In this document: positions 6,308-31,037 of the stretch, piece by piece | Layout of the letters: each line of letters begins with the position of its first letter | How positions within the stretch are numbered: the stretch's first letter is position 1 | DNA from: Gautieria morchelliformis | Lineage: Eukaryota; Basidiomycota; Agaricomycetes; Gomphales; Gomphaceae | Length of the DNA: 64,000 bases | Direction: 5' to 3' | Assembly: GCA_015179125.1 (NCBI GenBank) | Contig: WHVA01000307.1 | Span: forward strand, 1-64,000 | Notes under the pieces: model-generated | What the model was told of the DNA's origin: nothing | The model's input: the letters and a program-made list of their open reading frames with translations, nothing else | The model's database searches: none | Made by a program: the position numbers and the translations under genes

Positions 6308-6530
6308 CTAGGTGGGTACCCGCGCTTCGCGCGGGGGTGTAGGTCAAACGCCTCAGTAAGGTCAAACGCATCAGTAAGTCTAACACATCGGTAAGTCTAA
6401 CATATAAGTAAGGTCAAGTACATTGGGGAAAATCAAAGTAATCAATTTCCATCAAGTAAAATGAAGTCAAACACATAAACCATATCAAGAGAAGTGGATA
6501 TTAAAAATCAAGGAGCTCTAAGTAATACAT
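6308..6530 (-). other. Helitron H1 3'-terminal region with hairpin and subterminal repeats
   Basis: Reading plus strand, CTAG is followed by the hairpin CCCGCGCTTCGCGCGGG and then degenerate tandem repeats of about 17 bp of the form GGTCAAACGCMTCAGTAA. The last codons of the helicase (about 6508-6530) border this block. The same structure recurs at 12855, 15794, 20047 and 26835, and in decayed form at 13614, 17377 and 28305. Confidence 0.85.
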
Positions 6531-9500
6531 CTTTATATACAATGTTGGTTGTGTTCAAACCCTCCTCAAGCAAGACCTTCACTTTGTTCCAGCTTGTTCC
6601 CCTTGAAACACCAACATACAACTGACCATGTCCAAACACTGGATATATCAGGTCCAGCCCAACCGTACCCAAAGACTGTCCCTGAGACTTGTTGATGGTC
6701 ATTGCAAATGCCACACGCACTGGAAACTGTCTCCTCTGCAGCACAAATGGTAATTCCCCCTCTGATGGTGAAATGGTGATCCTGGGGATGAAAGCAGTAT
6801 TTCCTGCATGTGGACCTGAGATGATCCTGACCTCCAACACTCTATTCCTCATCCTCACCAACCGCAACCTTGTCCCATTGCATAGTCCTTGCTTCTTATC
6901 CAAATTGCGCAACATCATCAGAGGCCCTCCAGGCTTGACTTCCAAGTGAGCAGGAGGAAGACTGCCCATCTCTATGGAATTCAGATACTCCACAGGATAC
7001 TGCTCTGCAAAGTCGGTTTCCTTGACAGAATCTGCACAGTGGAAGACCTGAGCATCACCTGGAAACTGCCTCAACACCATGGAATTGATCTCATTGACCT
7101 CAATATTTCTGGGACAGAGGATGGCCCGCTCCAAGAAATAATTGTCCTGGGCAGGGATTGCATTGCCAATGCCAGGGTATATTTCCTGGATCAGCTCTGC
7201 AATTCCAGGGCCACAAACCATGTGTTGAGGGAGTGAGAACGTATGATCTAGTGGGAGATCCTTTCCCTGACCCACATTCTGCAGCCATTCTGCAAACCTG
7301 GCTCTGTCAGGGTCATTTCTCACCCGCATGTTCTCTCTCAAATGGAGGACCTTGATCTTTGGCCACAGATATGACTTCTGAAGGGTAGCTCCCACGATAT
7401 CCTCCTTGGAGCCTTTGGGGACAATTGGGAGAGTCTGCTGAAAGTCACCTCCAAAGGCAACCGTGATGCCACCAAAGGGTCGGTCAGGCTGGTCAAGGAA
7501 ATCCCTCAGTGTCCTGTCAATGGCCTCTATGGCATGGCGATGCTGCATTGCAGCCTCATCCCAAATGATGAGCCTGGCCAGTCTCAACATATCAGCCTGG
7601 TCAGAGTTCTTTTTGATGGAGGAGAGAGAGCGCTCATGGACAGGAATTGGAATTCCAAGCATGCTGTGAGAGGTTGTCCCATTAGTGAGGATAAGTGCAG
7701 CCATTGCAGATGAGGCTACAGCAAACACAATGAGACTCTCCGCTCTACAGGAGTGGATTAGGGTGTTCCATGTGAATGATTTCCCAGCGCCCCCTGAGCC
7801 AGTGACGAAAAACATTTGTCCATTAGGTTTCCCCTGAGCATCTATGTCCAGTGCCGACCGTAATATCTGATCATGCGCAGACCTTTGCCCCTCATTCAGC
7901 TTGGGAACCTCCTCATCAGCCATCTGCCTCTCTTGAACAGGGTCATAGTCCCTCTGCTCAGCTATGAACCTGTTTCCAATCAGGACCTCCCACTCACCTA
8001 CCACCCGAGGCATATCTTTAAAGCTGCTCAAGGACATGCCATTACGCTGAAGGAGTTTATCCAAGAGAAAGAGGCCAAAATCATAGACCTGATCATCCCG
8101 TGGCTCCTGGATATTGTGCCTGATTTGGAGCTGATGTCTGAGATCATCACATATGTGCTCCTTGAAGGCATCCCATAGTCTGTCAGGTTGTGAGGGAATG
8201 CAATGGCCAAGGATGGTGGCAAAGAGATGTCTGAGCTGAGCGCCTGTTTTCATGCCACTGGCTTCCTGGAGACACAACCTCCACTCCTGATCATCCTCCA
8301 GAAGTCCCCTGGAAAGACAGGCCTCCTTGTAAGTAGCACATTGTATGCCATCCACTGTCCTAAGCTCCTCAAAGGATCTGGCCCCCTTGACCACCGTGAG
8401 GAGAGTGCGCAAATAAAATCTCTCTCCTGATTTGGGGCTTGCAAAGTGAAGATGTCCAATGCTATATCCCCTTTGACATGGTGTCCATACCCTTTCCTCT
8501 TTTTGCCAGGTAAAATGCTCAGGAAAATCCACATAGAGCACATCGCATGCATGAGGGTAGGCAGCATTGGCCTCAAAGTAAGCCATGAGCGCTGTCTTTG
8601 ACCCCTCGACCCTGTTCATGATGGTGAGCGGATCAGCATCAGGATTGAAAACGACTGATTGCTGGTCTTTTTCATGGACTGGCAGTGCCATGACTGCAGG
8701 CACCTGGGTGTGGATTTCCCGCTCCAGCAACCTCCAACAGGCCTCATGAGCACTGACATAGCGAGCGTCCAGGTACTTCTTTATCTCATCATGGTCGACA
8801 CCGAACTCCATCGTGGTCCGATCGTGGCCCTTGTATAGATACTTGTGGATATACTTGACGCACCTCACACTGAAGGTGAATTCAAGGTTGATGTGACACC
8901 GGAGTTTGAGCAAGAGCAGAGGAGAGTATGGCACAACCCATCTGTTGTCCAGCATGTCACCTCTGACATTGTGCAGCCTTCCATCATTGCGACGACGATA
9001 TTTTGGATATCCATCTACATTCACAACGGTCTCCTCACAGAATGGCTTTGGGAAGCCTTTCTTGCACTTGCCATTTTCCATGCAGGGTGCATTTGGATTC
9101 ATTTGTCCACAGGGACCATGTGTCATCAGCTCACAGACCAACTGGTAGAGGACAGGATGTGTCTCTGGATCAGGGAACTCTGCTGAAATCATAGAATCCA
9201 CCTCATGTGGATGTTTGACCTTGGACTCCCTATCGAACCAGGTCAGCAGGTGCATGTGTGGGAGCCCCCTCTTCTGGAATTCAATAGTGTGAACGCGAGC
9301 GACGGTTTCTCCAAAGATCTTGTCCTTGACGATCAAGTCAATGAGGTATTTCTTTTTGAGGTGAAACACCCGCGACACCAGGTCAGGTCTGTCCTGAGCA
9401 GTTTGTCCAGGGAGCAACTCGGCCACTATCTCATCCCACTTTGGATTGGCAGTCATGGTAATAAATAAATCAGGGGCACCCTTCTTTGTTGTAATGGCCA

Positions 9501-11487
9501 GGGAGTTCTGGCAGTTTTGATTCATGTCCCGTGTACTTCCTTGAAATGTCGCAGGCAGAATGACTTTTATGCCCAAGCTGTTTGCATCTCCCATGTCATT
9601 GTCCAAGCCTCCATATGAATCTACCATCTGGTTATACTGCTCAGCACGCAGAGTGTGTTGATTGGCCCTGATCCACCTCAGTCTGCTTTGCTCTGCAGCA
9701 GCCCAGGAGTCTACAATGTACTGCTGGAACAATTTGCCACCACGCAGGAGTGTTGTAGGTTCTCTCTCTCTCTGGAACAGACGATATGCATGGTACTGTA
9801 TTTGGGTGACCTGGCTCCGTCGGTTTGGATTGGGATTGGCCTGCCGAGCACGCTCTGGCTCACGATAAGGAATACCTGGTTCCCATCCCAACTCTCCCTT
9901 GGGAAAGAGCAAGACATAGTGCAGAGAGGCATAGTTTGCATTGGTATCCAATACCCTTCTGAAAGGTCCACCTCTGAGCTGGACAATAATATCCCTAGGT
10001 TCAGGGTCGATGCCATCTCCAGGAAGAACGACTGCAATCTCATCTGCAGTTGGGACATTATATCTCCTAGGATCCCTGTGTGCCCTGTACGTGAGCCTTG
10101 CCTGGATGTCACCATTCTGTTCTTGAGCTCTGAGCCTCTCAGCTGCTTGTTTATATGTGCGCACATGAGGATTGCATAGCAGGAGCATTTCCTGCAAGTC
10201 TCCCATGATAGTTGGAGACAGACGCTCATTACGATTTTTTCTCTTTGCCAAAGCCAGTGCAGGATCATATATGTAAAGCTGGGCATACTTTGGATCGTCT
10301 TCATTGTCAGGGAGGAGAGAGCCATGGAGATGATACAGTTCACCCTGTAGCTTGAGCACATATGGACCACGACCCTCCCGAAGCAAATCTTGGTCAAAGT
10401 CGGCCCCCACAGAAGTGAATGCAAACGCAGCATTATACTGCCTGATATTCTGGCGAAATCCTTTTGCCTCAGGGTCCTGGCCTTCTAAGAGCTGTTTCAA
10501 CGGCTGAGGGGGCTCTGGCAGGTCTTCCAGCTGCACCTTTCCTTCCATACAGCAATCACCAAACCTGGGCCGCACATTTGAGGATTTCTGCAGACGTTCT
10601 GCCCTCCAGTGTAATGCTCCACAGTCAGGGCAGGGAATAACCATGGGACCCAAATCATGACGCTGCACATCTGCCTCAATTATTCTAGAGCGACCAAGTG
10701 GAAGAGGAGGAGGAGGTCGCTGAGGACGCTGCCGAGGTACAGGGAGCGGCTGAGGAGGTGCAGGGAGCAGCTGAGGAGGTGCAGGGAGCGGCTGAGGAGG
10801 TTCAGGGAGTGGCTGGGGAGGCTGAGGAGGTGCAGGGAGCGGCTGAGGAGGTGCAGGGAGTCGCTGAAGAGGCCGCAAAAGTGCAGGGAGTAGCGGCGGC
10901 ATTGGTCTTATTGCATTGGCCTGAGCCGGCAATGCTGCCACTCCTGCAGAACCTACTACAGAAGGATTAGCTGCCTGTCTACCTCTTCCCAATTGCTGCA
11001 ATATAGCAGACTGCTCAGCAGCCTGAGCACGCAACTGTGCAATTCCTGCAGAACCAACCACAGGAAGATTGGGAGGTGGCCGTATAGGCTCCTGCCTGTA
11101 TCTTCTCACAGGCTGTGCTGCTGGGATTGCTGCTAACTGAGCACGCAGGGCTGCCACCTGCTGTCCAGGACTGGGATCCGGAGGACGTGACGGCCCTGGA
11201 GGCATAGGAGGACGTGGTGGCCCTGCAAGGATAGGAGGACGTGATGGCCCAGCCACAGGTTGTTGAAAAGGATCAGCGACATTGCTTCTAGGAGGAGGGC
11301 GAGGGATGGCAAAAGGCTGTGGTGGAGGGGGAGGCTGGTCCTGAGCTCTGACAGCAGCAGCAGCAAGTGCACGCGCTCGCCGATCAGTGGGCGACGTCAT
11401 ATGACCCTCTTGCTCCTCCCTTGCCCTTTCACGCTCCTGCTGACGATTTCTCTCTGGAGTAGAAGGATCCCTGAGAAATGTAGGCAT
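6508..11487 (-). CDS. Helitron RepHel protein (HUH rolling-circle endonuclease plus Pif1-type helicase)
   Basis: One uninterrupted frame of 1659 codons. Residues about 35-265 are proline- and glutamine-rich (PPQPLPAPPQ). A zinc-finger-like CPDCGALHW with later CC follows near 283-315. The Helitron N-terminal Rep domain contains the HUH motif in GLPHMHLLTWF near residue 740 and the KYLYKGHD motif near 885. The helicase part has Walker A GSGGAGKS near 1228, Walker B IIWDEAAMQHR near 1310, GGDFQQTLPIV near 1348, and TINKSQGQSLG near 1600, ending YVGVSRGTSWNKVKVLL. These are the Pif1/RecD motifs of Helitron helicases. The product would nick and unwind DNA for rolling-circle transposition in the nucleus. 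All key motifs are present, so it may be active. The first exon could be preceded by untranslated leader exons. Confidence 0.93.
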   Translation of the reverse strand: MPTFLRDPSTPERNRQQERERAREEQEGHMTSPTDRRARALAAAAVRAQDQPPPPPQPFAIPRPPPRSNVADPFQQPVAGPSRPPILAGPPRPPMPPGPSRPPDPSPGQQVAALRAQLAAIPAAQPVRRYRQEPIRPPPNLPVVGSAGIAQLRAQAAEQSAILQQLGRGRQAANPSVVGSAGVAALPAQANAIRPMPPLLPALLRPLQRLPAPPQPLPAPPQPPQPLPEPPQPLPAPPQLLPAPPQPLPVPRQRPQRPPPPLPLGRSRIIEADVQRHDLGPMVIPCPDCGALHWRAERLQKSSNVRPRFGDCCMEGKVQLEDLPEPPQPLKQLLEGQDPEAKGFRQNIRQYNAAFAFTSVGADFDQDLLREGRGPYVLKLQGELYHLHGSLLPDNEDDPKYAQLYIYDPALALAKRKNRNERLSPTIMGDLQEMLLLCNPHVRTYKQAAERLRAQEQNGDIQARLTYRAHRDPRRYNVPTADEIAVVLPGDGIDPEPRDIIVQLRGGPFRRVLDTNANYASLHYVLLFPKGELGWEPGIPYREPERARQANPNPNRRSQVTQIQYHAYRLFQREREPTTLLRGGKLFQQYIVDSWAAAEQSRLRWIRANQHTLRAEQYNQMVDSYGGLDNDMGDANSLGIKVILPATFQGSTRDMNQNCQNSLAITTKKGAPDLFITMTANPKWDEIVAELLPGQTAQDRPDLVSRVFHLKKKYLIDLIVKDKIFGETVARVHTIEFQKRGLPHMHLLTWFDRESKVKHPHEVDSMISAEFPDPETHPVLYQLVCELMTHGPCGQMNPNAPCMENGKCKKGFPKPFCEETVVNVDGYPKYRRRNDGRLHNVRGDMLDNRWVVPYSPLLLLKLRCHINLEFTFSVRCVKYIHKYLYKGHDRTTMEFGVDHDEIKKYLDARYVSAHEACWRLLEREIHTQVPAVMALPVHEKDQQSVVFNPDADPLTIMNRVEGSKTALMAYFEANAAYPHACDVLYVDFPEHFTWQKEERVWTPCQRGYSIGHLHFASPKSGERFYLRTLLTVVKGARSFEELRTVDGIQCATYKEACLSRGLLEDDQEWRLCLQEASGMKTGAQLRHLFATILGHCIPSQPDRLWDAFKEHICDDLRHQLQIRHNIQEPRDDQVYDFGLFLLDKLLQRNGMSLSSFKDMPRVVGEWEVLIGNRFIAEQRDYDPVQERQMADEEVPKLNEGQRSAHDQILRSALDIDAQGKPNGQMFFVTGSGGAGKSFTWNTLIHSCRAESLIVFAVASSAMAALILTNGTTSHSMLGIPIPVHERSLSSIKKNSDQADMLRLARLIIWDEAAMQHRHAIEAIDRTLRDFLDQPDRPFGGITVAFGGDFQQTLPIVPKGSKEDIVGATLQKSYLWPKIKVLHLRENMRVRNDPDRARFAEWLQNVGQGKDLPLDHTFSLPQHMVCGPGIAELIQEIYPGIGNAIPAQDNYFLERAILCPRNIEVNEINSMVLRQFPGDAQVFHCADSVKETDFAEQYPVEYLNSIEMGSLPPAHLEVKPGGPLMMLRNLDKKQGLCNGTRLRLVRMRNRVLEVRIISGPHAGNTAFIPRITISPSEGELPFVLQRRQFPVRVAFAMTINKSQGQSLGTVGLDLIYPVFGHGQLYVGVSRGTSWNKVKVLLEEGLNTTNIVYKDVLLRAP

Positions 11488-11763
11488 AAGCTTAGAGGAA
11501 CAATCAAGCTACCCCACTTCAACTTACATTTGCAAGCAGATGCTGTTGTTGTTAATTTTTCTTGGGCAAAGTCAGGGGGATTTATTAATTTCTAATTAAA
11601 TAAAAGTCAGACAGCTCACACCAGACCACAGAGAAATACATACATACCAAGGATGGGACAGGGAGTTTGTTTGTTAGGCAAAGTCAAGGGAATATTAATT
11701 TCTATTTAAAAAAAAAGAAAATGTCAGATGGCTCACACCAGACCACAGACAAATATATGTACC

Positions 11764-12251
11764 TGTTAGCAACTAGGGGCTATGGCAGGGAAGGTTCGGT
11801 AGAGTTCTTAGAAAGCTAGAATCAAATATACTCTCTCAGTGAATTTATTGTCACTGATGTATTAATACAATACCTAGAATCAAATATACTACATGATTTT
11901 CAGTCAACATGCTATGTAAATATGAAGAATACTACTCGCCTCTCTCAGTGAATTTATTGTCACTGAGAGAGGAGTGTAATCCTGTCTCAGAAGGCATATA
12001 CTTGCACCCGGCCCTTTAGCGCCCAAGGGCTCGCGCGTCGAAGTCGTTTCAAACTCCGCTGGGTGCAGCCGCCTGTGAAAGTAGAAATAACAGAATAAAA
12101 TGGAGAGATAGAGAGTGACTGGAAAATTTCGAAAATAAGCAGAGAAATGGATGCATGGTACAAGAACAGTATGAGAAAATATTGAAACACCACACAATAA
12201 ATTGAATATATTATGCTTGATTTTGGTGCAGGAGCATAAATGCACCCAACA
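11764..12251. repeat. 488-bp solo LTR inside the leader of Helitron H1
   Basis: The block starts TGTTAGCAACT, ends CACCCAACA, and is flanked by a perfect 5-bp duplication GTACC (11759-11763 and 12252-12256). No internal element sequence is present. A second copy of the same length lies in inverted orientation at 63393-63880. LTR-retroelement family, solo LTR. Confidence 0.85.
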
Positions 12252-13052
12252 GTACCAAGGAAGGGATGGGGAATTTTTTTGATGAAAATATCCAAGTCTT
12301 CTTCGGCTATCCAACTGGAATAATTCCAGTAAAAGGTCCTGGTCGTGGTCCTGGGGAGATGTCTTCTTCAACCACCAGTAGTGCAAGTCAACACTAAGAG
12401 AACTGCAATGCAATTGTGGCTCCCTCTAAGGCAGCCTGGGATGATTACCTGGCTCCTTAGCAGAGAAAAAGCTGCCCCACTGAAGAGGTCAACCCCAATA
12501 GTTCACAGCAGAGATCTCCCTGGGAAGAGATCTTTTGTAGTCTACACTATATAGGCTATCTATTAATTCACTCTCACGCAATTTTATTCTATCTAGAGGG
12601 CAGAGAGGAGAGGAGGGTGGTGGTGGAGTGCGCAAAAGCGGCTGCGCAGCGTTCTGCCAGCGCAGCGCGGCTTTGAGCGCTTGAGCCACCAGAATGCTGC
12701 GCAGCCTCGAGCGCTGGAGCCGGCAGACCGGCGTGAACCGTGGGTAGGGCGTAGGGCTCGCGGCTGCGCCGCTCGCGCACTCCGCTGACAAACTAATGAC
12801 CAAGCATTGGTCAGCGGGCCCACAACCACCCACCCCCCGCGTTTAACTCTTAGACTAGGTGGATACCCGCGCTTCGCGCGGGGGTGCAAGTCAAACGCCT
12901 CGGTAAGGTCAAACGCATCAGCAAGGTCAAACACCTTGGGTAAATCAAACTGGGATAAGTCAAACACATTTGGATAAGAAAATTTCATTCAGATAAGTAA
13001 AACACATTTTATTGATTGAAAGTAGCTCTAAGTAACACATCAAGGTAGGTAA

Positions 13053-13612
13053 TGTTATGACCATGCTGCTTGACCAACTCTGGTACCTCCATGCCTCCTC
13101 TGGCTCTATTCCACAATGTCCACACTTTGACCTTTTGATTCCCTTGTTCTTTACTATTCACATACTTCCCCTTTTGACTCTATTCACTGGCCTTCCCTAC
13201 TTGACCCTTAGCATAGCAAGTCCGGAGCATCAGGAGATTCATTTGTTCCACTATCAATTAGACCCACATTCCCCTTGTTCTTTTGCCTATTGATTGATCT
13301 TAGTTCTACCCAGCACCCCCTTGTAGTTCCTCTTGTTCCGTATTAGTTACTTACTCCATTTATCCTAGTTACTTTTGCTTGCACTGGAATTGCTTACCTC
13401 TACCTTCTGACATGTTGTCTCAGCTCTTTGTATAAAACCCAGTCATGTGTGCCTCTGTTTTGCAATCAGATAATTGACTTGAATATATGACTCCCTTTGC
13501 ACTGTTTCCTGTTCTTACCACAGCAAGTACTTGCAAGGCCTCTGTCTCTCTGACCTCTGCCTTCCATCTCGATTTCTGATATCCAACTTAACTCAATTCT
13601 TGAACCCTTACC
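13053..13612 (+). repeat. LTR-derived segment carried in Helitron c1
   Basis: It starts TGTTATGACC and contains a TATAAAACCC box, aligning by eye with the solo LTR found at 16198 and 27230 (same start TGTTAYGAC and same TATA region), so it is an older relative of that LTR. It lacks a recognisable LTR 3' end and stops at the inner Helitron terminus. The site 13253-13257 (ATCAA) is the empty form of the position where the younger LTR sits in c2 and c3. Confidence 0.6.
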
Positions 13613-13613
13613 T

Positions 13614-13781
13614 GTAGGTGGATACCCATGCTTCGCATGGGGGTGTAGGTCAAACACCTCGGTAAGGTGAAATGCATCAGCAAGGTCAAATGCATTGGGT
13701 AAATCAAACTTGGGATAAGTAAAACACATCTCATTGCCATTGAAAGTAGCTATAAGTAACACATCACGATAGGTAATGTCT
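13614..13781 (-). other. inner Helitron 3' terminus of c1
   Basis: It repeats the terminal structure: hairpin CCCATGCTTCGCATGGG, GGTCAAA-type subterminal repeats and the helicase tail codons. The hairpin differs from the outer one by two compensated base pairs, and the terminal tetranucleotide on the minus strand is CTAC instead of CTAG. Confidence 0.65.
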
Positions 13782-13789
13782 CTACATAT

Positions 13790-14570
13790 GTCTGCATGTG
13801 CCCAAGTATAGTGTGCATAGCATGTCCTCCATGCACAGTGTGTCCCTCAAATATAGCATGCTTATTGTGTGCCTGGTTTGTAACATGACCCCACATATAA
13901 CATGTCCCCAAGTATAGTGTGCATAGCACGTCCTCCATGCATAGTCTGTCTCCACATGTAGCATGTCCCTGGTTTGTAGCATGTCCCCAAACGTAGCGTG
14001 CCCCTAAATTATAGCATGTGTGTCCCCCATGCATAGCATGTCCACATGTGTAGCATGTCCCTACATGTAGTGTGTGTAGCATCTGCCTCAAGTATAGTGT
14101 GCAAAGTGTGTCCCCCATGCATAACATGTCCCCCAAGGATAGCATGTATAGAATGTCCCTTGTTTTTCCCCATGCATAGTTTGCGTAGTGTGTCTCTTGT
14201 TTGCACCGTGTCCCCCAAGCATAGTGTGTCTGTCCCCAAGCATAGTATGTCCCCAAGCATAGTATGTCCCCAAGCATAGTGTATCCCACCATATAGTGTG
14301 CACATCCCCATGCATAGTGTGTGTGTGCCCATGCATAGCATGCTTGTCCCCATGCATAACAGTGTGTCTCTACGCATAACATGCATGTCCCCAAGCATAG
14401 CATGCGTGTCCCCATGCACAACATGCATGTCTCCACGCCTAACGTGCATGTCTCCACACCTAACATGCATGTCTCCATGCATAGCGTGCGTGTGCCCATG
14501 CATAGTGGGTGTAGCATGTCCCAATGGCATGTGTAGCATATCCCAAGGGCCTCAAAGTGAAGCAAGCAGA
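13790..14570. repeat. CATGCATAG/TGTCCCC minisatellite in c1
   Basis: A degenerate tandem array of units about 17-27 bp long built on the words CATGCATAGYGTG and TGTCCCC. It leaves several reading frames open on both strands, giving Cys/Met/His-rich repetitive ORFs that I do not regard as genes. Confidence 0.85.
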
Positions 14571-15500
14571 GGCTGTCTTTTCATTAACTTCTAGCAAACT
14601 CAGGGACATGTATCAATATCTATTTTGTGACATACAGATATAAATAAAATAGTAAAGGAGGCCATATTTAAGCAGCTGCTGTCATTAATTTTAGCAAAGT
14701 CAGGATTATCTATTTTTTGAAAAATGTCAAAACAAATGTCCAGTACGTTTAAGCTGAAGTTATTATTAATTCTAGCAGAGTCAAGATTATCTATTTTTCG
14801 AAAAATGTCAAAAAAATGCACTGTACATTTAAGCTGGAGCTGTTGTCAAATTTCACAAAGTCAGGATAATTTATTGACATCTATTTGTGAAAAAATGCCA
14901 AAAAAGTACAGTACATTGAAGCAGAAGCTGTTATTAATGCCCAGCCCAAGCCAGAGAAGCCCAGAGACTGACAGAGAAACCCAGAGGCCAGCCAAAGCCA
15001 TAGTAAGCCAGCCACCAGTATAGCCAGAGAAGGAGTGCCTGACAGCTTTACAGTAAATAAAACAACAAAACAAAACACATTTAAAAGCACAACCTATTGT
15101 CATTAATTTTAGAGGAACCTTATTGATGTCAATTTTCGAAAAAAACCTGAAAAATATATATATATAAATACTTTTTTTCAGCACAGTGTTGGGATTTTAT
15201 TTAAATCTATTTTCGAAAAAATTCACAAAAATATAAAGCACATGTGACAATACAATATGATGAAAAAAAAAATGGAACCAATAAAATTACAAACACAAAT
15301 ACAATACAATACATGGCAATGCATTAAAAAAGAGATATTACCTACCAATAGAAAGCCAGGGAGGAGACACCAGAGAGCGCAGAAGACAGCAGACAGCGCA
15401 GACAGCAGACAAAGCAGAGAGCAGACACAGCAGAGAGCACACAGCAGACAAAGCAGACAGCAGAGAGAGGAATTGCCGGTCAGGCAGATTCCTGGCATTC
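14570..15500 (-). repeat. leader-like AT-rich repeats and AGCAGACAGC tract in c1
   Basis: Units of roughly 100 bp share the words CTGTYRTTAAT and AAAGTCAGGAT with the leader of H1. On the minus strand they contain branch-point and acceptor-like strings (CTAAAATTAATGACAG). At about 15360-15470 there is a short-period AGCAGACAGC repeat. Equivalent blocks are at 18780-19730 and 29755-30700. Confidence 0.6.
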
Positions 15501-16197
15501 CATCCTACCGAACTGCCTTTATATACCGCGCGCGCGTGTCGTGCACGGACCACGCGCGAACGGGTCACGTGACCGCGGACGCAGCAGCGCAGCGTTCATT
15601 GCTCGCGGCTGCGCCGCTCACCGCTGACCTAAAGAGAGCCCTGGAGCCAGCAGACCGGCGTAAACCGGTGATAGGGCCAGGGGCTCGCGGCTGCGCCGCT
15701 CGCGCGCTCCGCTGACAAACTAATGACCAAGCATTGGTCAGCATTGGTCAGCGCGCCCACAACCTCCCACCGTGCTACTTTCACCTATAGGAACTAGGTG
15801 GATACCCGCGCTTCGCGCGGGGGTGCAAGTCAAACGCCTCGGTAAGGTCAAACGCATCAGCAAGGTCAAACGCCTTGGGTAAATAAAACTTGGGATAAGT
15901 CAAACATATTCGGATAAGAAAACTTCTTTCAGATAAGTAAAACTCATCTTATTGATTGAAAGTAGCTCTAAGTAACACATCAAGGCAGGTAATGTTATGA
16001 CCATGCTGCTTGACCAACTCTGGTACCTCCATGCCTCCTCTGGCTCAATTCCGCAACGTCCACACTTTGACCTTTTCATCCCCTTGTTCTTTACTATTCA
16101 CATACTTCCCCTTTTGACTCTATTCACCGGCCTTCCCTACTTGACCCTTAGCATAGCAAGTCCGGAGCATCAGGAGATCCATTTGTTCCACAATCAA

Positions 16198-17015
16198 TGT
16201 TACGACTGTTCCGCTCAACCATCTCCGCCATATCCGCATATCCTCCGCACCACCTCTGCACCGCCTCTGCCCCACCTCTGCACCGCCTCTGCACCACCTC
16301 TGCACCGCCTCTGGACCACCTCTGCACCGCCTCTGGACCACCTCTGCACCGCCTCCGCACCACCTCTGACTCTATTCCATAACATCCACACCATCTGCAA
16401 CCCTCTACCTCGACCCTTGTGATTTCAGTACCCTGGCCACCTCCAGATACCGGCCCCCGTACTCCACCCTGAACATAGCAAGATACCATTTCCGTAATTC
16501 CGTTTCTTCCGAGGCCTATTGTACTTACTCGCCTTGTTCTTTGCCATTGTACTTACCCTACCCTGCCACCCCCTTGTCATCCCATTGTTCCGCATTAGTT
16601 ACTTGCCCCGTATGTCTATCCGATTCCTGCACTCTCCAGAATTTGCTTAGTACCATACCATTACCTGTTGCTTCAGCTCTTTGTATAAAACCCCCTCATG
16701 TATGTCTCCGTTCCTGCAATCAGATAATCAACTTCGATACGTGATTCCCTTCGCACTGTCTCCTGTTCTTAGCACAGCGAGTTTTGCTAGTCTTGTCTCC
16801 TTCCGCTCTCGACCCCCTGTCCTCCGCCTCTTCCGACCTTTGTTCTCCGACCCTCGAACCTCGACTCTCAGTACTCTGTTCCCGACTTCTGCCTTCTCCG
16901 ATATCCGCAAGTCAATCCCGAAATACTTAGGATGGTAGTTCATCAGGGGCACAACACATAAGTTGAAGCCGTTGTCCTTTCCAGTTCTGACCTCTGGGAA
17001 TTCCAATACGTAACA
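16198..17015 (+). repeat. solo LTR nested in c2
   Basis: It starts TGTTACGACTG and ends CAATACGTAACA (perfect TGTTACG/CGTAACA ends), flanked by ATCAA at 16193-16197 and 17016-17020. It includes a TATAAAACCC box near 16684 and a short-period CACCTCTGCACCGCC repeat, longer here than in the c3 copy. There is no internal sequence, so it is a solo LTR of 818 bp. Confidence 0.88.
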
Positions 17016-17376
17016 ATCAATTAGACCCACATTCCCCTTGTTCTTTTGCCTATTGATTGTTCTTAGTTCCACCCGGCACCCCCTTGTAGTTCCTCTTGTT
17101 CCGTATTAGTTACTTACTCCATTTATCCTAGTTACCTTTGCTTGCACTGGAATTGCTTACCTCTACCTTCTGACATGTTGTCTCAGCTCTTTGTATAAAA
17201 CCCAGTCATGTGTGCCTCTATTCTGCAATCAGATAATTGACTTTGATATGTGACTCCCTTTGCACTGTTTCCTATTCTTACCACAGCAAGTACTTGCAAG
17301 GCCTCTGTCTCTCTGACCTCTGCCTTCCAACTCGATTTCTGATATCCAACTTAACTCAATTCTTGACCCCTTACCT

Positions 17377-17515
17377 CTAGGTGGATACCCATGCTTCACA
17401 CGGGGGTGTAGGTCAAACGCATTGGGTAAATCAAACTTGGGATAAGTAAAACACATCTCATTGCAATTGAAAGTAGCTATAAGTAACACATCAAGATAGG
17501 TAATGTCTCTACGCA
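17377..17515 (-). other. inner Helitron 3' terminus of c2
   Basis: CTAG followed by CCCATGCTTCACACGGG, a partly unpaired version of the hairpin, then subterminal GGTCAAA repeats and the helicase tail codons (YLDVLL). Confidence 0.65.
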
Positions 17516-18770
17516 TGTCTGCATGTGCCCAAGTATAGTGTGCATAGCCTTGAATATAGCATGCTTATGGTGTCCCTGGTTTGTAACATGCACACATAAC
17601 ATGTCCCCAAGTATAGTGTGCGTAGCATGTCCTCCATGCATAGTGTGTCTCCACATGTAGCATGTCACCAAGTACAGTGTGCATGGTGTGTCCCACATGC
17701 ATAGCATGTCCCTGGTTTGTAGCATGTCCCCAAACATAGTGTGTCCATAAATTATAGCATGTGTGTCCCCCATGCATAGCGTGTCCACATGTGTAGCATG
17801 TCCCTACATGTAGTGTGTAGCATCTCCCTCAAATATAGTGTGCAAAGTGTGTCCCCAATGCATAACATGTCCCCCGAGTATAGTGTGCATAGCATGTCCT
17901 TTGTTTGTAGCGTGTCCCCCAAGTATAGCATGTGTAGAATGTCCCTTGTTTGTAGTGTTTTCCCCTGTAGTGTGTCCCTTGTTTGTACCGTGTCCCCCAA
18001 GCATAGTGTGTCCCCACATATAGTGTGCACATCCCCATGCATAGTGTGTGTGTGCCCATGCATAGCCTGTGTGTCCCATCCCCCAAGCATAGTGTGTCCC
18101 CACATGCAGCATGTCACCAAGTACAGTGTGTGTGGCATGTCCCACATGCATAACATATCCCTCAAGTATTTTGTGTGTAGCATGTCCCTAAATTATAGCA
18201 TGTGTGTCCCCCATGCATAGCATGTCCACATGTGTAGCATCTCCCTACACATAGTGTGTGTAGCCTCTCCCTCAAGTATAGTGTGCACAGTGTGTCCCCC
18301 ATGCATAACATGTCCCCCAAGGATAGCACGTATAGAATGTCCCTTGTTTTTCCCCATGCATAGTGTGCGTAGTGTGTCTCTTGTTTGTACCGTGTCCCCC
18401 AATCATAGTGTGTCTGTCCCCAAGCATAGTATGTCCCCAAGCATAGTGTATCCCACCATATAGTGTGCACATCCCCATACATAGTGTGTGTGTGCCCATG
18501 CATAGCATGCTTGTCCCCATGCATAACATGTGTGTCTCTACGCATAACATGCATGTCCCCAAGCATAGCATGCTTGTCCCCATGCACAACATGCATGTCT
18601 CCACGCCTAACGTGCATGTCTCCACACCTAACATGCATGTCTTCACGCCTAACATACATGTCTCCATGCATAACATATGTGTCTCCATGCATAACATATG
18701 TGTCTCCATGCATAGTGTGTGTAGCATGTCCCAATGGCATGTGTAGCATATCCCAAGGGCCTCAAAGTGA
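17515..18770. repeat. CATGCATAG/TGTCCCC minisatellite in c2
   Basis: Same unit as the array in c1 but longer (about 1.25 kb), and nearly identical to that in c3, with a few units gained or lost. Confidence 0.85.
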
Positions 18771-20229
18771 AGCAAGCAGAGGCTGTTACTTATCATTTAC
18801 TTTTCGCAAACTCAGGGACATGTATCAATATCTATTTTGTGACATATACAGACATAAATAAAATAGTAAAGGAAGCCATATTTAAGCAGCTGCTGTCATT
18901 AGTTTTAACAAAGTCAGGATTATCTCAAAACAAATGTCCAGTACGTTTAAGCTGAAGTTGTTATTAATTTTAGCAAAGTCAAGATTATGTATTTTTTGAA
19001 AAATGTCAAAAAAATGCACTGTACATTTAAGCTCCAACTGTTGTCAATTTTCATAAAGTCAGGATAATTTATTGACATCTATCTGCGAAAAAATGTCAAC
19101 AAAGTACAGTACATTGAAGCAGAAGTTGTTATTAATGCCCAGCCAAAGCCAGAGAAGCCCAGAGACTGACAGAGAAACCCAGAGCCCAGCCAAAGCCATA
19201 GTAAGCCAGCCACCAGTATAGCCAGAGAAGGAGTGCCTGGCAGCTTTACAGTAAATAAAACAACAAAACAAACCACATTTAAAAGCAGAACATATTGCCA
19301 TTAATTTTAGAAGAAACTTATTGATGCCTATTTTCGAAAAAAACCTGAAAAATATATATATCAAAATACATTTTTTTCAGCAGTCTTGGGATTTTATTTA
19401 AATCTATTTTCGAAAAAAATAACAAAAATATAAAGCAAATGTGAATACAATATGATAAAAAAAAAGGAACCAATAAAATTACAAACACAAATAAAATAAA
19501 ATACATTGGAATGCATTAAAAAAGAGATATTACTTACCAATAGATAGTCAGCCAACCAAAGCCATAGACAGCCAGACAGCTAAAAGAGGAGACAGCAGAC
19601 AGAGCAGACAGCAGACAGCACCCAGAGCAGACAGAGCACAGAGCAGACAGCGGACAGAGCACAGAGCAGACAGCACAGAGCACAGAGCAGACAGAGCACA
19701 TAGCAGACAGCAGACAGAGGAATCGCCGGTTGGACAGGTTCCTGGCGTTATGTCCTTACCGTTCGGCCTTTATACCGTGCGCGCGTGTCGTGCACGGACC
19801 ACACTCGTGTATGCGCGCTCTAGTCACGAACGGGTCACGTGACCACTGCGCAGCGTTCTCTCGCGGCTGCGCCGCTCGCCGCTGACCTAATTTGGAACGC
19901 AAACGGTCACGTGACCATGCTGCGCAGCGTTCTTGGCTCGCGGCTGCGCCGCTCGCGCGCTCCGCTGACAAACTAATGACCAAGCATTTGTCAGCATTGG
20001 TCAGCGCGCCCATAACCTCCCACCGTGCTACTTTCACCTATAGGAACTAGGTGGGTACCCGCGCTTCGCGCGGGGGTGTAGGTCAAACACCTCAGTAAGT
20101 CTAACACATCAGTAAGTCTAACATATCAGTAAGGTCAAGTACATTGGGGAAAATCAAAGTAATCAATTTCCATCAAGTAAAATGAAGTAAAACACATAAA
20201 CCATATCAAGAGAAGTGGATATAACAAAA

Positions 20230-23200
20230 TCAAGGAGCTCTAAGTAATACATCTTTATATACAATGTTGGTTGTGTCCAAACCCTCCTCAAGCAAGACCT
20301 TCACTCTGTTCCAATTGGTCCCTCTTGATACACCAACATACAACTGACCATGTCCAAACACTGGATATCTCAGGTCCAGCCCAACCGTACCCAAAGACTG
20401 TCCCTGAGACTTGTTGATAGTCATTGCAAATGCCAAACGCACTGGAAACTGCCTCCTTTGCAGCACAAATGGCAACTCTCCCTCTGATGGCTTAATGATG
20501 ATCCTGGGGATGAAAGCAATATTGCCTGCACATGGACCTGAGATGATCCTGACCTCCAACACTCTAATGCTTATCCTCACCAACCGCAACCTTGTCCCAT
20601 TGCATAGTCCTTGCTTCTGATCCAAATTGCGCAACAGCATCAGAGGCACTCCAGGCTTGACTTCCAAGCGAGCAGGAGGAAGACAGCCCATCTCTATGGA
20701 ATTCAGATACTCCACAGGATAACGATCTGCATCGTCGGACTCTTCAATGGAATTTGCACAGTGCAAGACCTGAGCATCACCTGGAAACTCCTAAACACCA
20801 TGGAATTGATCTCATTGACCTCAGTGTTTCTGGCACAGAGGATGGCACGCTCCAGAAAGTAATTGTCCTGGACAGGGACTTGATTGCCAATGCCAGGGTA
20901 TATTTCCTGGATCAGATCTTCAATTCCAGGGCCACAAACCATGTGAGGAGGGAGTGAGCACGTATGATCTAGTGGGAGATCCTTTCCCTGGCCCACATTC
21001 TGCAGCCATTCTGCAAACCTGGCTCTGTCAGGGTCATTTCTCACCCGCATGTTCTCTGTCAGATGGAGGACCTTGATCTTTGGCCACAGATATGACTTCT
21101 GAAGGGTAGCTCCCACGATATCCTCCTTGGAGCCTTTAGGGACAATTGGGAGAGTCTGCTGAAAGTCACCTCCAAAGGCGACTGTGATGCCACCAAAGGG
21201 ACTGTCAGGCTGGTCAAGGAAATCCCTCAGTGTCCTGTCAATGGCCTCTATGGCATGGCGATGCTGCATTGCAGCCTCATCCCAGATGAGGAGACTGGCC
21301 TGTCTCAGCATGTCAGCCTTGTCAGAGTTCTTTTTGATGGAGGAGAAAGAGCGCTCATGGACAGGAATGGGAATTCCAAGCATGCTATGAGAGGTTGTAC
21401 CCTTAGTGAGGATAAGTGCAGCCATTGCAGATGAGGCTACTGCAATCACAATGAGGCTCTCCGCTCTACAGGAGTGGATTAGAGTGTTCCATGTGAATGA
21501 TTTCCCAGCGCCACCTGAGCCAGTGACAAAAAACATTTGTCCATCAGGTTTCCCATGAGCATCTCTGGTCAGTGCCGACCGTAATATCTGATCATGCGCA
21601 GACCTTTGCCCCTCATTCAGCTTAGGAACCTCCTCATCAGCCTTTTCCCTCTCTTCAACAGCATCATAGTCCCTTGCTCAGCTATGAACCTGTTTCCAAT
21701 GAGGGCCTCCCACTCGCCTGCCACCCGAGGCATATCATCAAAGCTGCTCAAGGACATTCCACCCTGCTGGAGGATTTTATCCAAGAGAAAGAGGCCAAAA
21801 TCATAAACCTGATCGTCCTGTGGATCCTGCATACCATGTCTGATTTGGAGCTGATGTCTGAGATCATCACATATGTGCTCCCTGAAGGCATCCCATAGTC
21901 TGCCGGGGCCTGATGGATTGCAATGGCCAAGGATGGTGGCAAAGAGATGTCTGAGCTGAGCACCTGTTTTCATGCCACTGGCTTCCTGGAGACACAACCT
22001 CAACTCCTGATCATCATCCAGAAGTCCCCTTGCACGACAGGCCTCCTTGTAAGTAGCATATTGTATGCCATCCACCGACCTAAGCTCCTCAAAGGATCTA
22101 GCCCCCTTGACCACTGTGAGGAGAGTGCGCACAAAAAATCTCTCTCCTGATCTAGGGTTTGCAAAGTGAAGGCGACCGATGCTATAACTCCTTGGCGCGG
22201 TGTCCATACCTTTTCCTGTGAGTGCCAGGTAAAATGCTCAGGAAACTCCACATAGAGCAGATCACGTGCTTCAGGGTAGATATCATTGGCCTCAAAGTAA
22301 GCCATGAGCGGTGTCTTTTTCGCCTCAGCCCTTTCCAGGATGTTGTCCACATCCTGGTTGGGATCAAAGATGATTGTGTGATGGTCCTTTTCATGGACTG
22401 GCAGTGCCATGACTGCAGGCACCTGGGTGTGGATTTCCCGCTCCAGCAACCTCCAACAGGCCTCATGAGCACTGACATAGCGAGCGTCCAGGTACTGCTT
22501 AATTTCATCCTGGGTGCGACCAAACTCCATGGTGGTCCGATCATGGCCCTTGTAGAGATACTTGTGGATATACTTGATACACCTCACATTGATGGTGAGT
22601 TCAGGGTTGATGTGACACCAGAATTTGAGCAAGAGCAGGGCAGAGTATGGCACAACCCATCTGTTGTCCAGCATGTCACCTCTGACATTGTGCAGCCTTC
22701 CATCATTGCGACGACGATATTTTGGATATCCATCCTCATTCAGACTGGTTTCCTCACAGAATGGCTTTGGGAAGTTTTTCTTGCACTTGCCATTTTCCAT
22801 GCAGGGTGCGTTTGGTTTCATTTGTCCACAGGGACCATGTGTCATCAGCTCACAGACCAACCGGTAGAGGACAGGATGAGTCTCTGGATCAGGGAACTCT
22901 GCTGAAATCATTGAATCCACCTCATGTGGATGTCTGATCTTGGAATATCGTTCAAACCAGATAAGAATATGCATGTGTGGGAGTCCCCTTTTCTGGAATT
23001 CAATGGTGTGGACGCGAGCGACGGTTTCCCCAAAATCTTTTCCTTGACGATCAAGTCAATGAGGTATTTCTTTTTGAGCTGGAACACCCGCGACACCAGG
23101 TCAGGCCTGTCCTGAGGAGTTTGTCCAGGCAACAATGCATCCAATACCTCCTGCCAGTTGGGATTGGCAGTCATGGTAATAAAGAGATCTGCCACACCAT

Positions 23201-25395
23201 GCTTCCTTGAAATGGCCAGAGAGTTCTGCAGGTTTTCTGCATGTCCCGTGTCCCCCCCTGAAATGTGGCAGGCAGAATGGATCTTTGCCCAAGTTGTTTG
23301 GATCTCTGTCATTGTCATTGCGATGAAAGGCATCCATCATCTGGTTATACATCTCAGCACGGAGAGTGTGTTGATTTGTCCTGATCCACCACAGCCTGCT
23401 TTGCTCTGCAGCGGCCCAAGAGTCTACAATGTACTGCTGGAATAATTTGCCAGCGGCAGGAGTGTTGTAGGTTCTTCTGTTCTCTGGAAGAGACGATAGG
23501 AATGGAACTGAATTTGGGTGACAGCCCACTTCGCTCACGCCCATCTGGTAATTGGCGATAGCGAATACCAGGTTGCCACCCCAACTCTCCCCTGGGAAAG
23601 AGCAAGACATAGTGAAGAGAGGCATAGTTTGGATTCATATCGGATACCCTTTTAAAACGTCCACCTTTGAGCTGGACAATAATATCCCTAGGTTCAGGGA
23701 TGATGCCATCTCCAGGAAGAACCACCGCAATCTCATCCGCAGTAGGGATATTATACCTCCTAGGATCCCTGTGTTCCCTGTACGTGAGCCTAGCCCAGAT
23801 CTCACCATTCTGTCCCTGAGCTCTGAGCCTCTCAGCCGCTTGTCTATATATGGGAACATGAGGATTGCATAAGAGGAGCATTTCCTGCAAGTCTCCCATG
23901 ATAGTTGGAGACAGACCTGGGTTACGCGTGTTCCTCTGTGCCAAAGCCACTGCTGGATCATATATATAAAGTTGGGCATACTGTATCCGCCTCCCAGGGT
24001 TAGGGATGAGAGAGCCATGAATATGATACAGTTCGCCCTGCAGCTTGAGGACATATGGACCACGACCCTCCCGAAGCAAATCTAGATCAAACTCGGCACC
24101 CAAGGAAGTGAATGCAAATGCAGCATTGTACTGCCTGATGTTCTGGCGAAACTGTTTGGCCTCAGGGTCCTGGCCCTCTAAGAGCCGTCTCAATGGCTGA
24201 GGGAGCACTGGCAGCTCTGGAAGCTGCACCTTTCCTTCCATACAGCAATCACCAAATCTGGGCCGCCGATTTGAGGATCTCTGCAGGCGTTCTGCCATCC
24301 AGTGTAATGCTCCACAGTCAGGGCAGGGAATAACCATGGGACCCAGATCATGACGCTGCACATCTGCCTCGATTATTCTAGAGCGACCAAGTGGAACAGG
24401 AGGAGGAGGTCGCTGAGGACGCTGCCGAGGTACAGGGAGTGGCTGAGGAGGCCGAGGAGGTGCAGGAGTGGCTGAAGAGGCTGTGGAGGTGCAGGGAGTG
24501 GCTGAGGAGGCTGAGGAGGAGCAGGGAGTGGCTGAGGAGGCTGAGGAGGAGCAGGGAGTGGCTGAGGAGGCTGAGGAGGTGCAGGCAGTCGCTGAAGAGG
24601 CCGCAGAAGTGCAGGGAGTAGCCGAGGCATTGGTCTTACTGCATTAGCCTGAGCCCGCAATGCTGCGACCGCTGCAGAACCTACTACAGGAGGTCTAGGA
24701 GCTGGTTGTAAAGGTGCCTGCCTGGGTCTTCCCAAGGGCTGTGCTGGGATAGGCTGTATACCAGCAGCGTGAGCATGCAAATCTGCCACCGCTGTAGAGC
24801 CTACTGCCAAATGTCCAATTCCAGCCGCCTGAGCACGCAACTGAGCAATTGCTGCAGAACCTGCTACAGGAGCTGGCTGTCCAGCGTCAGGCCTATTTCT
24901 TCTGAGGGGCTGTAATCGTGGGATAGCTGCTAACTGTGCACGAAGGGCTGCCACCTGCTCTCCAGGACTGGGATCAGGTGGATTTGATGGCCCCGCAAGC
25001 GTAGGAGGGTGCAATGGAGCTGGCTGTACAGGGTCTGGCCTATGTCCTCTCAGGGGCTGCCATGGTGTGATAACTGCTAACTGAGCACGAAGGGCTGCCA
25101 CCTGCTCTGTAGGACTGGGATCAGGAGCAAGTGATGGCGCCGCAGGCATTCGTGGACATGATGGCCCTGCCACAGGTTGTTGAAAAGGATCGGCTGCACT
25201 GCTTCTAGAAGGAGGGTGAGGGATGGCAAAAGGCGGTGGTGGAGGGGGTGGCTGGTTCTGAGCTCCAATATGCGCTCTCCAACACGCTCTCCGATGACTG
25301 GGTGGTGTCATTACCTCCTGCCCCTCCCTCGCACTTTGACGCACCTGCCGACGGATGCTCTCTGGGGTAGATGGATCCCTGAGAAATGCAGGCAT
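20230..25395 (-). pseudogene. RepHel pseudogene of Helitron H4
   Basis: Fragments in several frames cover the same protein as H1: proline-rich N-terminus (25395-24373), zinc-finger and Rep N-terminal part (24361-23354), Rep core (23333-22908, 22974-22000), the Rep-helicase linker (22207-21617), helicase motifs with GSGGAGKS and GGDFQQTLPIV (21536-20703) and the helicase C-terminus (20766-20230). At least six frame disruptions separate them, for example near 21540-21617 and 20700-20766. The HUH region is also disrupted near 22970. The N-terminal part has a tandem amplification of VAALRAQLAAI units beyond what H1 has. The copy cannot encode a full protein. Confidence 0.85.
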
Positions 25396-25550
25396 AAGAG
25401 TAGAGAGAGAATAAAGATATCAATATCAGACTTACATCGCAAGCAGAATAAGGCAAACTCAGGGAAAACAGGCTGTGCGGGTATCTCACACGGATTGCAA
25501 AGCCACTGATCCTAATATAAATACTGCAAACAGCAGATACAGTTACAAAA

Positions 25551-26565
25551 ACTTACCAGAAAGGGGATAATACCCAGGTAGGGTATGCAGTAGTGACAGG
25601 ACAAATGCACTTGAAAAGTGCCTACAAAATGCCAAAAAAGCAAAGTTATAGCAAATAACAACATAATAAGCATCAAGAAAAGGCAGATACAATACCATAA
25701 CACTCACCAGAAACAGCCAGGTAGCAGGTGCAGCAGTGACAGGACAAATGTCACTTGAAAAGTGCCTAAAAAAAGCCAAAAAAGCGAAATTATGGCAAAT
25801 AAGAAGATAATAAGCATCAAGAAAAGGCAGGTACAATGCCATAACACTCACCAGAAACAGCCAGGTAGCAAGTGCAGCAGTGACAGAAAGAATGTCACTT
25901 GAAAAGTGCCTAAAAAAAGCCAAAAAAGCGAAATTATGGCAAATAAGAAGATAATAAGCCTCAAGAAAAGGCAGGTACAATATCATAGCACTCACCAGAA
26001 ACAGCCAGATAGCAGGTGCAGCAGTGACAGGACAAATATCACTTGAGCAGTGCCTAAAAAAAGCCAAAAAAGCGAAATTATAGCAAAAAAGAACATAATA
26101 AGCATCAAGAAAAGGCAGGTACAATAGCATAGCACTCACCAGAAACAGCCAGATAGCAGGTGCAGCAGTGACAGGACAAATATCACTTGAGCAGTGCCTA
26201 AGAAAAGCCAAAAAAGCGAAATTATAGCAAAAAAGAACATAATAAGCATCAAGAAAAGGCAGGTACAATAGCATAGCACTCACAAGAAACAGCCAGATAG
26301 CAGGTGCAGCAGTGACAGGACAAATATCACTTGAGCAGTGCCTAAAAAAAGCCAAAAAAGCGAAATTATAGCAAAAAAGAACATAATAAGCATCAAGAAA
26401 AGGCAGATACAATACCATAACACTCACCAGAAACAGCCAGGTAGCAGGTGCAGCAGTGACAGGACAAATGTCACTTGAAAAGTCCCTAAAAAAGGCCAAA
26501 AAAGCGAAATTATAAATAACAAACATAAAAAAAGGCAGTTTCAGTAGCATCAAACTCACCAGAAA
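25551..26565 (-). repeat. 144-bp tandem repeats, each an intron-exon-like cassette, in the leader of H4
   Basis: The word CACTCACCAG recurs at 25701, 25845, 25989, 26133, 26277 and 26421, an exact 144-bp period, with diverged copies at each end. Read on the minus strand, each unit holds CTG|GTGAGT (donor), a TTATTATGTT or TGCTATAAT branch-like string, a pyrimidine-rich tract ending TTTTTTTAG (acceptor) and then a 58-bp segment up to the next donor. Because 144 is a multiple of three, one frame stays open for 338 codons, but the splice signals argue this is a repeated leader exon. Confidence 0.8.
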
Positions 26566-27229
26566 GAACCTAGATAGGAAGTTAATAGAAGAGATGCAGG
26601 TGGTGGGAGGGATGGGATGGGATGGGATGATGGTAGAAGGAGGGCAGAGGGGACCGGCTGCGCAGCGTCTGCCAGGTCACCCAGCGCTGTACCGGCAAGG
26701 TCTGCGCTGGGCCTGGGCCTAGGGCTCGCGGCTGCGCCGCTCGCTCCGCTGACCTAAATATTACGTAACATTATTTGTAATATTATTAGTCAGCCTCGAC
26801 GCCCACAACCCACTGAGCGCGTTTAACTCTTAGACTAGGTGGATACCCGCGCTTCGCGCGGGGGTGCAAGTCAAACACCTCGGTAAGGTCAAACACACCA
26901 GCAAGGTCAAACACCTTGGGTAAATCAAACTTGGGATAAGTCAAACACATTCAGATAAGTAAAATGCATCTTATTGATTGACAGTAGCTCTAAGTAACAC
27001 ATCAAGGTAGGTAATGTTATGACCATGCTGCTTGACCAACTCTGGTACCTCCATGCCTCCTCTGGCTCTATTCCGCAATGTCCACACTTTGACCTTTTGA
27101 TCCCCTTGTTCTTTACTATTCACATACTTCCCCCTGTGACTCTATTCACCGGCCTTCCCTACTTGACCCTTAGCATAGCAAGTCCGGAGCATCAGGAGAT
27201 CCATTTGTTCCACAATCAATGTTACGACT

Positions 27230-27943
27230 GTTCCGCTCAACCATCTCCGCCATATCCGCATAACCTCCGCACCACCTCCGCACCGCCTCCGCACCACCTC
27301 CGACTCTATTCCATAACATCCGCACCATCTGCAACCCTCTACCTCAACCCTTGTGATTTCAGTACCCCTGGCCACCTCCAGATACCGGCCCCCGTACTCA
27401 ACCCTGAACACAGCAAGATACCATTTCCGTAATTCCATTTCTTCCGAGGCCTATTGTACTTACTCGCCTTGTTCTTTGCCATTGTACTTACCCTACCCTG
27501 CACCCCCCTTGTCATCCCATTGTTCCGCATTAGTTACTTGCCCCGTATATCTATCCGATTCCTGCACTCTCCAGAATTTGCTTAGTACCATACCATTACC
27601 TGTTGCTTCAGCTCTTTGTATAAAACCCCCTCATGTATATCTCCGTTCCTGCAATCAGATAATCAACTTCGATACGTGATTCCCTTCGCACTGTTCTTAG
27701 CACAGCGAGTTTTGCTAGTCTTGTCTCCTTCCGCTCTCGACCCTCTGTCCTCCACCTCTTCCGACCTTTGTTCTCCGACCCTCGAACCTTGACTCTCAGT
27801 ACTCTGTTCCCGACTTCTGCCTTCTCCGATATCCGCAAGTCAATCCCGAAATACTTAGGATGGTAGTTCATCAGGGGCACAACACATAAGTTGAAGCCGT
27901 TGTCCTTTCCAGTTCCGACCTCTGTGAATTCCAATACGTAACA
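27230..27943 (+). repeat. solo LTR nested in c3
   Basis: Same family, same position and same ATCAA duplication (27225-27229, 27944-27948) as the solo LTR in c2; 714 bp because the internal CACCTCTGC repeat is shorter. The identical insertion point means it was inherited through Helitron transposition, not inserted twice. Confidence 0.88.
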
Positions 27944-28304
27944 ATCAATTAGACACACATTCCCCTTGTTCTTTTGCCTATTGATTGTTCTTAGTTCCAC
28001 CCGGCACCCCCTTGTAGTTCCTCTTGTTCCGTATTAGTTACTTACTCCATTTATCCTAGTTACTTTTGCTTGCACTGGAATTGCTTACCTCTACCTTCTG
28101 ACATGTTGTCTCAGCTCTTTGTATAAAACCCAGTCATGTGTGCCTCTATTCTGCAATCAGATAATTGACTTTGATATGTGACTCCCTTTGCACTGTTTCC
28201 TATTCTTACCATAGCAAGTACTTGCAAGGCCTTTGTCTCTCTGACCTCTGCCTTCCAACTCGATTTCTGATATCCAATTTAACTCAATTCTTGACCCCTT
28301 ACCT

Positions 28305-28440
28305 CTAGGTGGATACCCATGCTTCACACGGGGGTGTAGGTCAAACACATTGGGTAAATCAAACTTGGGATAAGTAAAACACATCTCATTGCAATTGAAA
28401 GTAGCTATAAGTAACACATCAAGATAGGTAATGTCTCTAC
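28305..28440 (-). other. inner Helitron 3' terminus of c3
   Basis: CTAG followed by CCCATGCTTCACACGGG and subterminal repeats, the same decayed hairpin as in c2. Confidence 0.65.
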
Positions 28441-31000: not shown

Positions 31001-31037
31001 TAGGCGCTTTCATACCGTGCTGCTTTCACCTATAGGA

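Follow-up and report, generated by a model that had tools for sequence, protein, structure and literature searches.

Composite Helitrons with an inner and an outer 3' terminus in Gautieria morchelliformis, a large family that probably propagates past its inner terminator

The DNA analysed here (the window) is a stretch of 64,000 nucleotides from Gautieria morchelliformis, and lies on contig C346; the assembly comprises 122 Mb in 1,113 contigs. With a terminus motif allowing up to three mismatches, eight matches were identified in the window, compared to 0.02 expected from shuffled sequences. These 3' termini are located at 6308, 12855, 13614, 15794, 17377, 20047, 26835 and 28305. They belong to five Helitrons on the minus strand, which are arranged head to tail from 6308 to 31038 in the order Helitron 1, c1, c2, Helitron 2 and c3. 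The features are as follows.

6308..12854, minus strand: Helitron 1, autonomous type, identified by an unbroken frame and a terminus
12855..13052, minus strand: c1, outer 3' terminus, ending in CTAG with a perfectly paired GC hairpin, and the 3'-terminal region, assigned to a sister Helitron, Y, by the same region in Y copies
13053..13613, no strand: c1, LTR piece, a truncated solo LTR beginning with TGTTATGACC after GGTAA and broken off at CCCTTACCT (sequence reading, comparison to the LTR of Y)
13614..15793, minus strand: c1, inner 3' terminus (CTAC) and body X up to the 5' end TTCCTATAGG (terminus match, folding)
15794..20046, minus strand: composite c2, outer terminus at 15794 and inner terminus at 17377 (terminus matches, folding)
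16198..17015, no strand: younger solo LTR interrupting the LTR piece of c2, target site duplication (TSD) ATCAA (read by eye, c2/c3 comparison)
20047..26834, minus strand: Helitron 2, autonomous type, Rep and PIF1 in separate broken frames
26835..31038, minus strand: composite c3, outer terminus at 26835 and inner terminus at 28305, right end of the array, followed by host T (termini, folding, host junction)
27220..27943, no strand: younger solo LTR in c3, same site as in c2, TSD ATCAA (c2/c3 comparison)

Helitron 1 contains an unbroken frame of 1666 codons (6508-11508) with matches to Helitron_like_N (PF14214), PIF1 (PF05970) and Pif1_2B (PF21530), the combination of Rep/HUH and PIF1-like helicase found in the Helitron1 type. 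To the left of the array, the host sequence ends in TTTCCCA, and to the right it continues with TAGAAC; the flanking A and T of the whole array fit a single insertion between A and T. Judged from the array and the junctions with host DNA, the 5' end is TCTAAGAG in Helitrons 1 and 2 and TTCCTATAGG in c1 to c3. The 5' end of the composites reads TTCC and is preceded by host A (31030-31040, and the copies L004, L007 and L008), in contrast to the canonical TC. The younger solo LTR splits the LTR piece of both c2 and c3, and several composites elsewhere in the genome break at the corresponding query position. The shared site in c2 and c3 and these breaks suggest an inherited insertion.

In a preliminary description of the locus, c1, c2 and c3 were each described to carry an outer 3' terminus, an LTR-derived segment and an inner 3' terminus. 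This organization was confirmed by the terminus matches and by reading eight uninterrupted copies of the LTR. In c1 (12855-15793, minus strand), the outer end extends for 198 bp to GGTAA, followed by the LTR from TGTTATGACC (13053) to CCCTTACCT (13613) and then by the inner terminus. The outer termini of all three composites end in CTAG with a perfect stem of 7 bp (-9.6 kcal/mol), and thus have the 3' CTRR and the hairpin about 11 nt before the end that characterize the Helitron1 type.

The eight uninterrupted LTRs were identified by a pattern for the LTR without the following C, which was found at nine places in the genome, the ninth being c1 itself (with G). In four of these copies (L069, L074, L075 and L077) the order is terminus, GGTAA, LTR, a second GGTAA and Helitron body; in L070 the repeats are slightly altered, and the sequence of L072 ends early. 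A complete solo LTR is therefore present in sister Helitrons, designated Y, at about 200 bp from the 3' end and flanked by duplicated GGTAA. The unduplicated site was found at three places, two of which (L100 and L102) belong to relatives that lack the LTR and have an A-flanked 3' terminus each, while the third (L101) belongs to a copy that carries the LTR and has an altered flank. Because of the GGTAA duplication and the empty site in relatives, the LTR is identified as a solo LTR that inserted into Y, and since it is complete in the Y copies, the composite reads as Helitron X plus a 3' fragment of its sister Y. The preliminary description had regarded the LTR as DNA captured from between two Helitron ends; this part of it has to be revised, since the LTR was already inside Y. 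It had proposed a search for the LTR-derived segment beside a single Helitron end; the Y copies carry the LTR complete, and outer terminus and LTR thus exist as an independent Helitron. It had further named as contrary evidence a 5' end belonging to the outer terminus and LTR inside the composite; this was not seen at any junction read, and at each of these the LTR piece stops mid-LTR, directly against CTAG.

The junction between LTR and inner terminus has 209 matches genome-wide with up to two mismatches, corresponding to about 200 copies. Among the 100 junction matches listed, one is not a composite, and all 40 copies that were scored span the junction at 95-100% identity. The divergence of the LTR piece among 38 composites has a median of 4.4% and a maximum of 15.9%. 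In a tree of the LTR, 30 of the 38 fall into one well supported group (100/99), and 37, together with the left piece of a second family (family B, see below), into a weakly supported one (89/81) beside the Y copy L069; the remaining composite, L060, is placed among Y copies. The tree has no single composite clade (three changes), and one clade was recovered in 0% of 200 bootstrap trees; by this tree, the composites may or may not go back to one origin.

The copies may form a transposing unit, or only a chance chain of nested transposons spread by segmental duplication. For the latter, it can be cited that 47 of 57 outer termini abut the 5' end of another Helitron and that c2 and c3, which are 96% alike, are members of one array. 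However, the copies are distributed across many contigs, have differing host DNA past the 5' end (c3, L004, L007 and L008) and differing left flanks elsewhere, and carry the canonical A and T at their ends, so that segmental duplication is disfavoured and appears very improbable. Instead, the composites probably constitute a large non-autonomous family which moves as X, truncated LTR and outer 3' end of Y, as judged from their sequence.

A marker located just inside the inner end of X was used to identify copies that end at the inner terminus. It has 234 matches with up to two mismatches; the 100 listed have zero or one mismatch, and 69 of these, on contigs up to C417, were compared to the junction list, so that 31 listed and 134 other matches lie outside this comparison. 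Of the 69 sites, 68 are composite (56 coincide with junctions, 10 have a diverged junction and 2 are among the scored junction copies) and one is truncated (L093). None of the 69 compared sites, out of 234, ends at the inner terminus. An ancestor consisting of X only was also sought by means of A-flanked CATGC termini, which occur at 12 places; the X marker was found in none of the 11 that were read (L039, L048 and L103 to L111), of which L103, L105, L106 and L108 have sequences too short to judge the marker, and the twelfth is on C901. An ancestor with its end at the inner terminus, for which the preliminary description had proposed a search, was hence not found in this range. The inner terminus lies within a many-copy element with an intact outer end, as in the pseudo-3'-termini Helitrons of maize, and the progeny end at the downstream terminus, as expected for read-through. 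This agrees with the proposal of the preliminary description that replication ran past the inner terminator to the outer end, and bypass of the inner terminator is quite likely the mode by which the composites propagate.

The bypass had been attributed to a weak, decayed inner terminus; an impaired inner end is seen in only some of the copies. In c2 and c3, CTAG is kept at the inner end and the stem is impaired (-3.5), with 39 of 200 shuffled sequences folding equally well. In c1, however, the stem is perfect (-6.9), and the CTAC on its Helitron strand is a private change rather than the decayed signal of a subfamily: in a set of the 30 closest copies, which counts c1 itself, the inner CTAG is present in 29. 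The inner stem is perfectly paired in 21 of these 30, in which the change of the second arm to GCATGGG restores pairing, and, in a similar proportion, the outer stem in 19 of the 28 that were read. These shares of CTAG and hairpin rest on the 30-copy set, picked by similarity to c1. For 35 composites with both ends read, many of them loci picked by a pattern containing CTAG and CATGC, the outer stem is the more stable one in 26 and the inner one in 9, with mean stem energies of -8.1 and -5.1, respectively (Wilcoxon p 3.5e-5).

The first arm of the inner stem is CCCATGC in 95 of 100 junctions among the matches listed, which corresponds to CCCGCGC after two CpG changes, and the second arm of c2 and c3, ACACGGG, can be reached from GCGCGGG in two G-to-A steps. 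Both observations point to a founder with a mismatched inner stem, CCCATGC..GCGCGGG. A natural stem of this kind, present in L104, folds at only -3.4. The inner hairpin would thus be impaired in the founder as it is in c2 and c3, and is paired in c1 and the majority of its nearest copies. Since these copies are mostly paired and retain CTAG, loss of the inner signal alone does not explain the bypass in this subfamily, where it must rest on another feature, either the GC content of the stem, the subterminal sequence or the nearby stronger terminator.

Further information on the origin of the junction was obtained from the flanking bases. Read on the plus strand, all 57 outer termini, of whatever kind, have A immediately before CTAG, as would result from insertion between A and T and equally from a neighbouring 5' end that begins with T. 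In the four copies with host DNA following (c3, L004, L007 and L008), the base beyond the 5' end is T. Insertion between A and T without a TSD, as in the Helitron1 type, is therefore seen at both ends. At inner junctions of the c1 to c3 type, the base before CTAG is T (CCT/CTAG) and not A; T was counted at 50 of 50 inner termini, in part a matter of definition because this flank was used to sort them. Only three places in the genome have a T before CTAG that does not follow a C. In the flank survey, C was found at 3 of 69 'outer' termini, two of which are inner junctions of family B and one of which (L024) is not a terminus.

A genome-wide pattern with C or G before the terminus identified 56 places, 52 of which share GGTGGGTACCCACACTT. 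Seven of the 52 were read, and all lie in the LTR of Y, cut at CAATTAG (five) or CAATTCC (two). At 41 of the 56 places, the terminus is located 689-764 bp before an uninterrupted LTR. By this arrangement, the approximately 52 sites are assigned to a second composite family (family B), with the order outer terminus, LTR piece, inner terminus and then LTR-bearing Y. The junctions read CAATTAG/CTAGG or CAATTCC/CTAGG, and in both copies read the outer stem is intact and the inner stem mismatched. On the Helitron strand, the base after the inner CTAG is A or C in family A and in the CAATTAG form of family B, and G in the CAATTCC form, so that the captured DNA lacks the T after CTAG that marks canonical insertion. 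Of the other four places with C or G, one is on C85 and two (L117 and L118) are ordinary 5' ends with the last base altered. In L119 (C1103:257105-257155), the terminus is joined to the LTR of Y at another point, GACCTCTGG/CTAGG; it was seen once and is possibly a third junction type. L078 (C354) contains three stacked 3' termini, at offsets 25, 1506 and 1895; here the outer terminus of a composite of family B comes after the LTR piece of family A.

It was considered that an intact X inserted into the solo LTR of Y and then moved from its own 5' end past its own terminus to the 3' end of Y. Nested insertion followed by bypass yields the observed order without extra steps, has been proposed for multi-terminus Helitrons of maize (PMC3288121), and is favoured by the position of the junction inside the LTR in both composite families. 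However, Helitron insertion leaves A before CTAG, as at the 57 outer termini, and the junctions read CCT/CTAG and TAG/CTAG. This objection is weakened by Helraiser, for which 46 of 1,751 insertions outside AT were reported. In addition, the donor junction predicted for such an insertion, the 5' end of X joined to ACTTCAGTTACAATACT, was not found, and 114 LTRs are uninterrupted; the search needed 18 exact bases, so that an old donor could escape it. The sole match to X 5' end plus the rest of the LTR proved, on reading, to be an ordinary LTR with a point mutation. Taken together, insertion of X into Y is somewhat unlikely.

Alternatively, an intact Y beside X in an array may have lost its 5' part up to the CTAG of X, perhaps from a Rep nick. 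Such a deletion accounts for the exact CTAG on one side and the arbitrary point in the LTR on the other, and for the non-A flank in both families. However, no intermediate was seen, two deletions that both stop precisely at CTAG call for an explanation, and the outcome is indistinguishable from the joining of an already truncated Y; a deletion of this kind is rather doubtful. The absence of an A flank in either family and of a donor junction modestly favours joining in an array over canonical insertion, and the chances are about even that the founder arose when a 5'-truncated end of Y came to lie beside X in a head-to-tail array, and not by an ordinary insertion of X between A and T.

For the origin of the composites by joining in an array, the following sequence of events is proposed. 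A solo LTR inserted into Y near its 3' end, as shown by the TSD and the empty site. The terminal piece of Y, cut mid-LTR, lies directly against the CTAG of X at the junctions, and the resulting unit of X, LTR piece and Y end has been multiplied and dispersed as a whole. In this process, the Rep-helicase of a related autonomous element may begin at the 5' end of X, pass the terminator of X, one stem arm of which would already have been mutated in the founder, and come to a halt at Y's GC hairpin, which is intact.

Experiments back bypass of the 3' terminator as the way in which Helitrons acquire new DNA. Bypass and multi-terminus Helitrons are already known for Helraiser and maize, and the composites are the same kind of thing. 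Like the maize Helitrons with pseudo 3'-termini described by Dong et al. 2011 (PMC3288121), they contain an inner 3' terminus in a multi-copy element with an outer CTAG end; that paper accounts for the maize case by Helitrons nested in one another, with transposition starting at the inner 5' end. However, 99 of 100 sampled pseudo-termini in maize were reported to be without CTAG, in contrast to the one of 30 c1-nearest copies here, so that the inner ends do not conform to the maize type. Also in contrast to maize as reported there, the captured piece can be traced to its source, with TSD and empty site, and a base other than A flanks the junction.

The composites resemble Helraiser and Helibat (Grabundzija et al. 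2016, PMC4778049) in the hairpin terminator and in a bypass giving rise to new 3' ends. According to that report, flanking DNA was taken in about 11.7% of events when the end was intact and in at least 36% when the hairpin was missing; in bats, de novo ends were found in 39 of 395 copies, one exemplar bypasses a CTAG without palindrome, and copies gained ends from adjoining 5'-truncated Helitrons. Compared to these cases, it is here an entire family, about 200 copies strong, that propagates with the bypassed end inside. The arrangement head to tail with abutting ends is shared with tandem Helitron arrays of bat and plants (cited in PMC5876387 and PMC5148889), but differs from those described there in that autonomous and composite members are mixed, five in a row. 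In Pleurotus HELPO1 (PMC4289320), an LTR element, there LTR/Gypsy, is likewise part of a fungal Helitron chimera. HELPO1 is reported as a single copy, whereas in the composites the end with the LTR has been transferred to a second Helitron and multiplied. The present case stands apart by its retained CTAG, by a source piece that is identified in full, by the copy number and by the second family.

In the reading proposed here, the LTR was cut at two distinct points, CCCTTACCT and CAATTAG, and terminus replacement would have occurred at least twice. It is conceivable, and put forward tentatively, that Helitron terminators are damaged by CpG mutation and that mobility returns when, within an array, the damaged element is joined to a sister's 5'-truncated end, a recurrent process by which composites may become the largest families. 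Natural cases in which the source piece, the empty site, the bypassed end and the new end are all readable seem to be few. The approximately 200 copies represent a natural experiment on terminator function, with two hairpins a few hundred bases apart, one of which is used and the other passed. Many of the used and passed hairpins share CTAG and similar pairing, and they differ mainly in the GC content of the stem and in the subterminal sequence.
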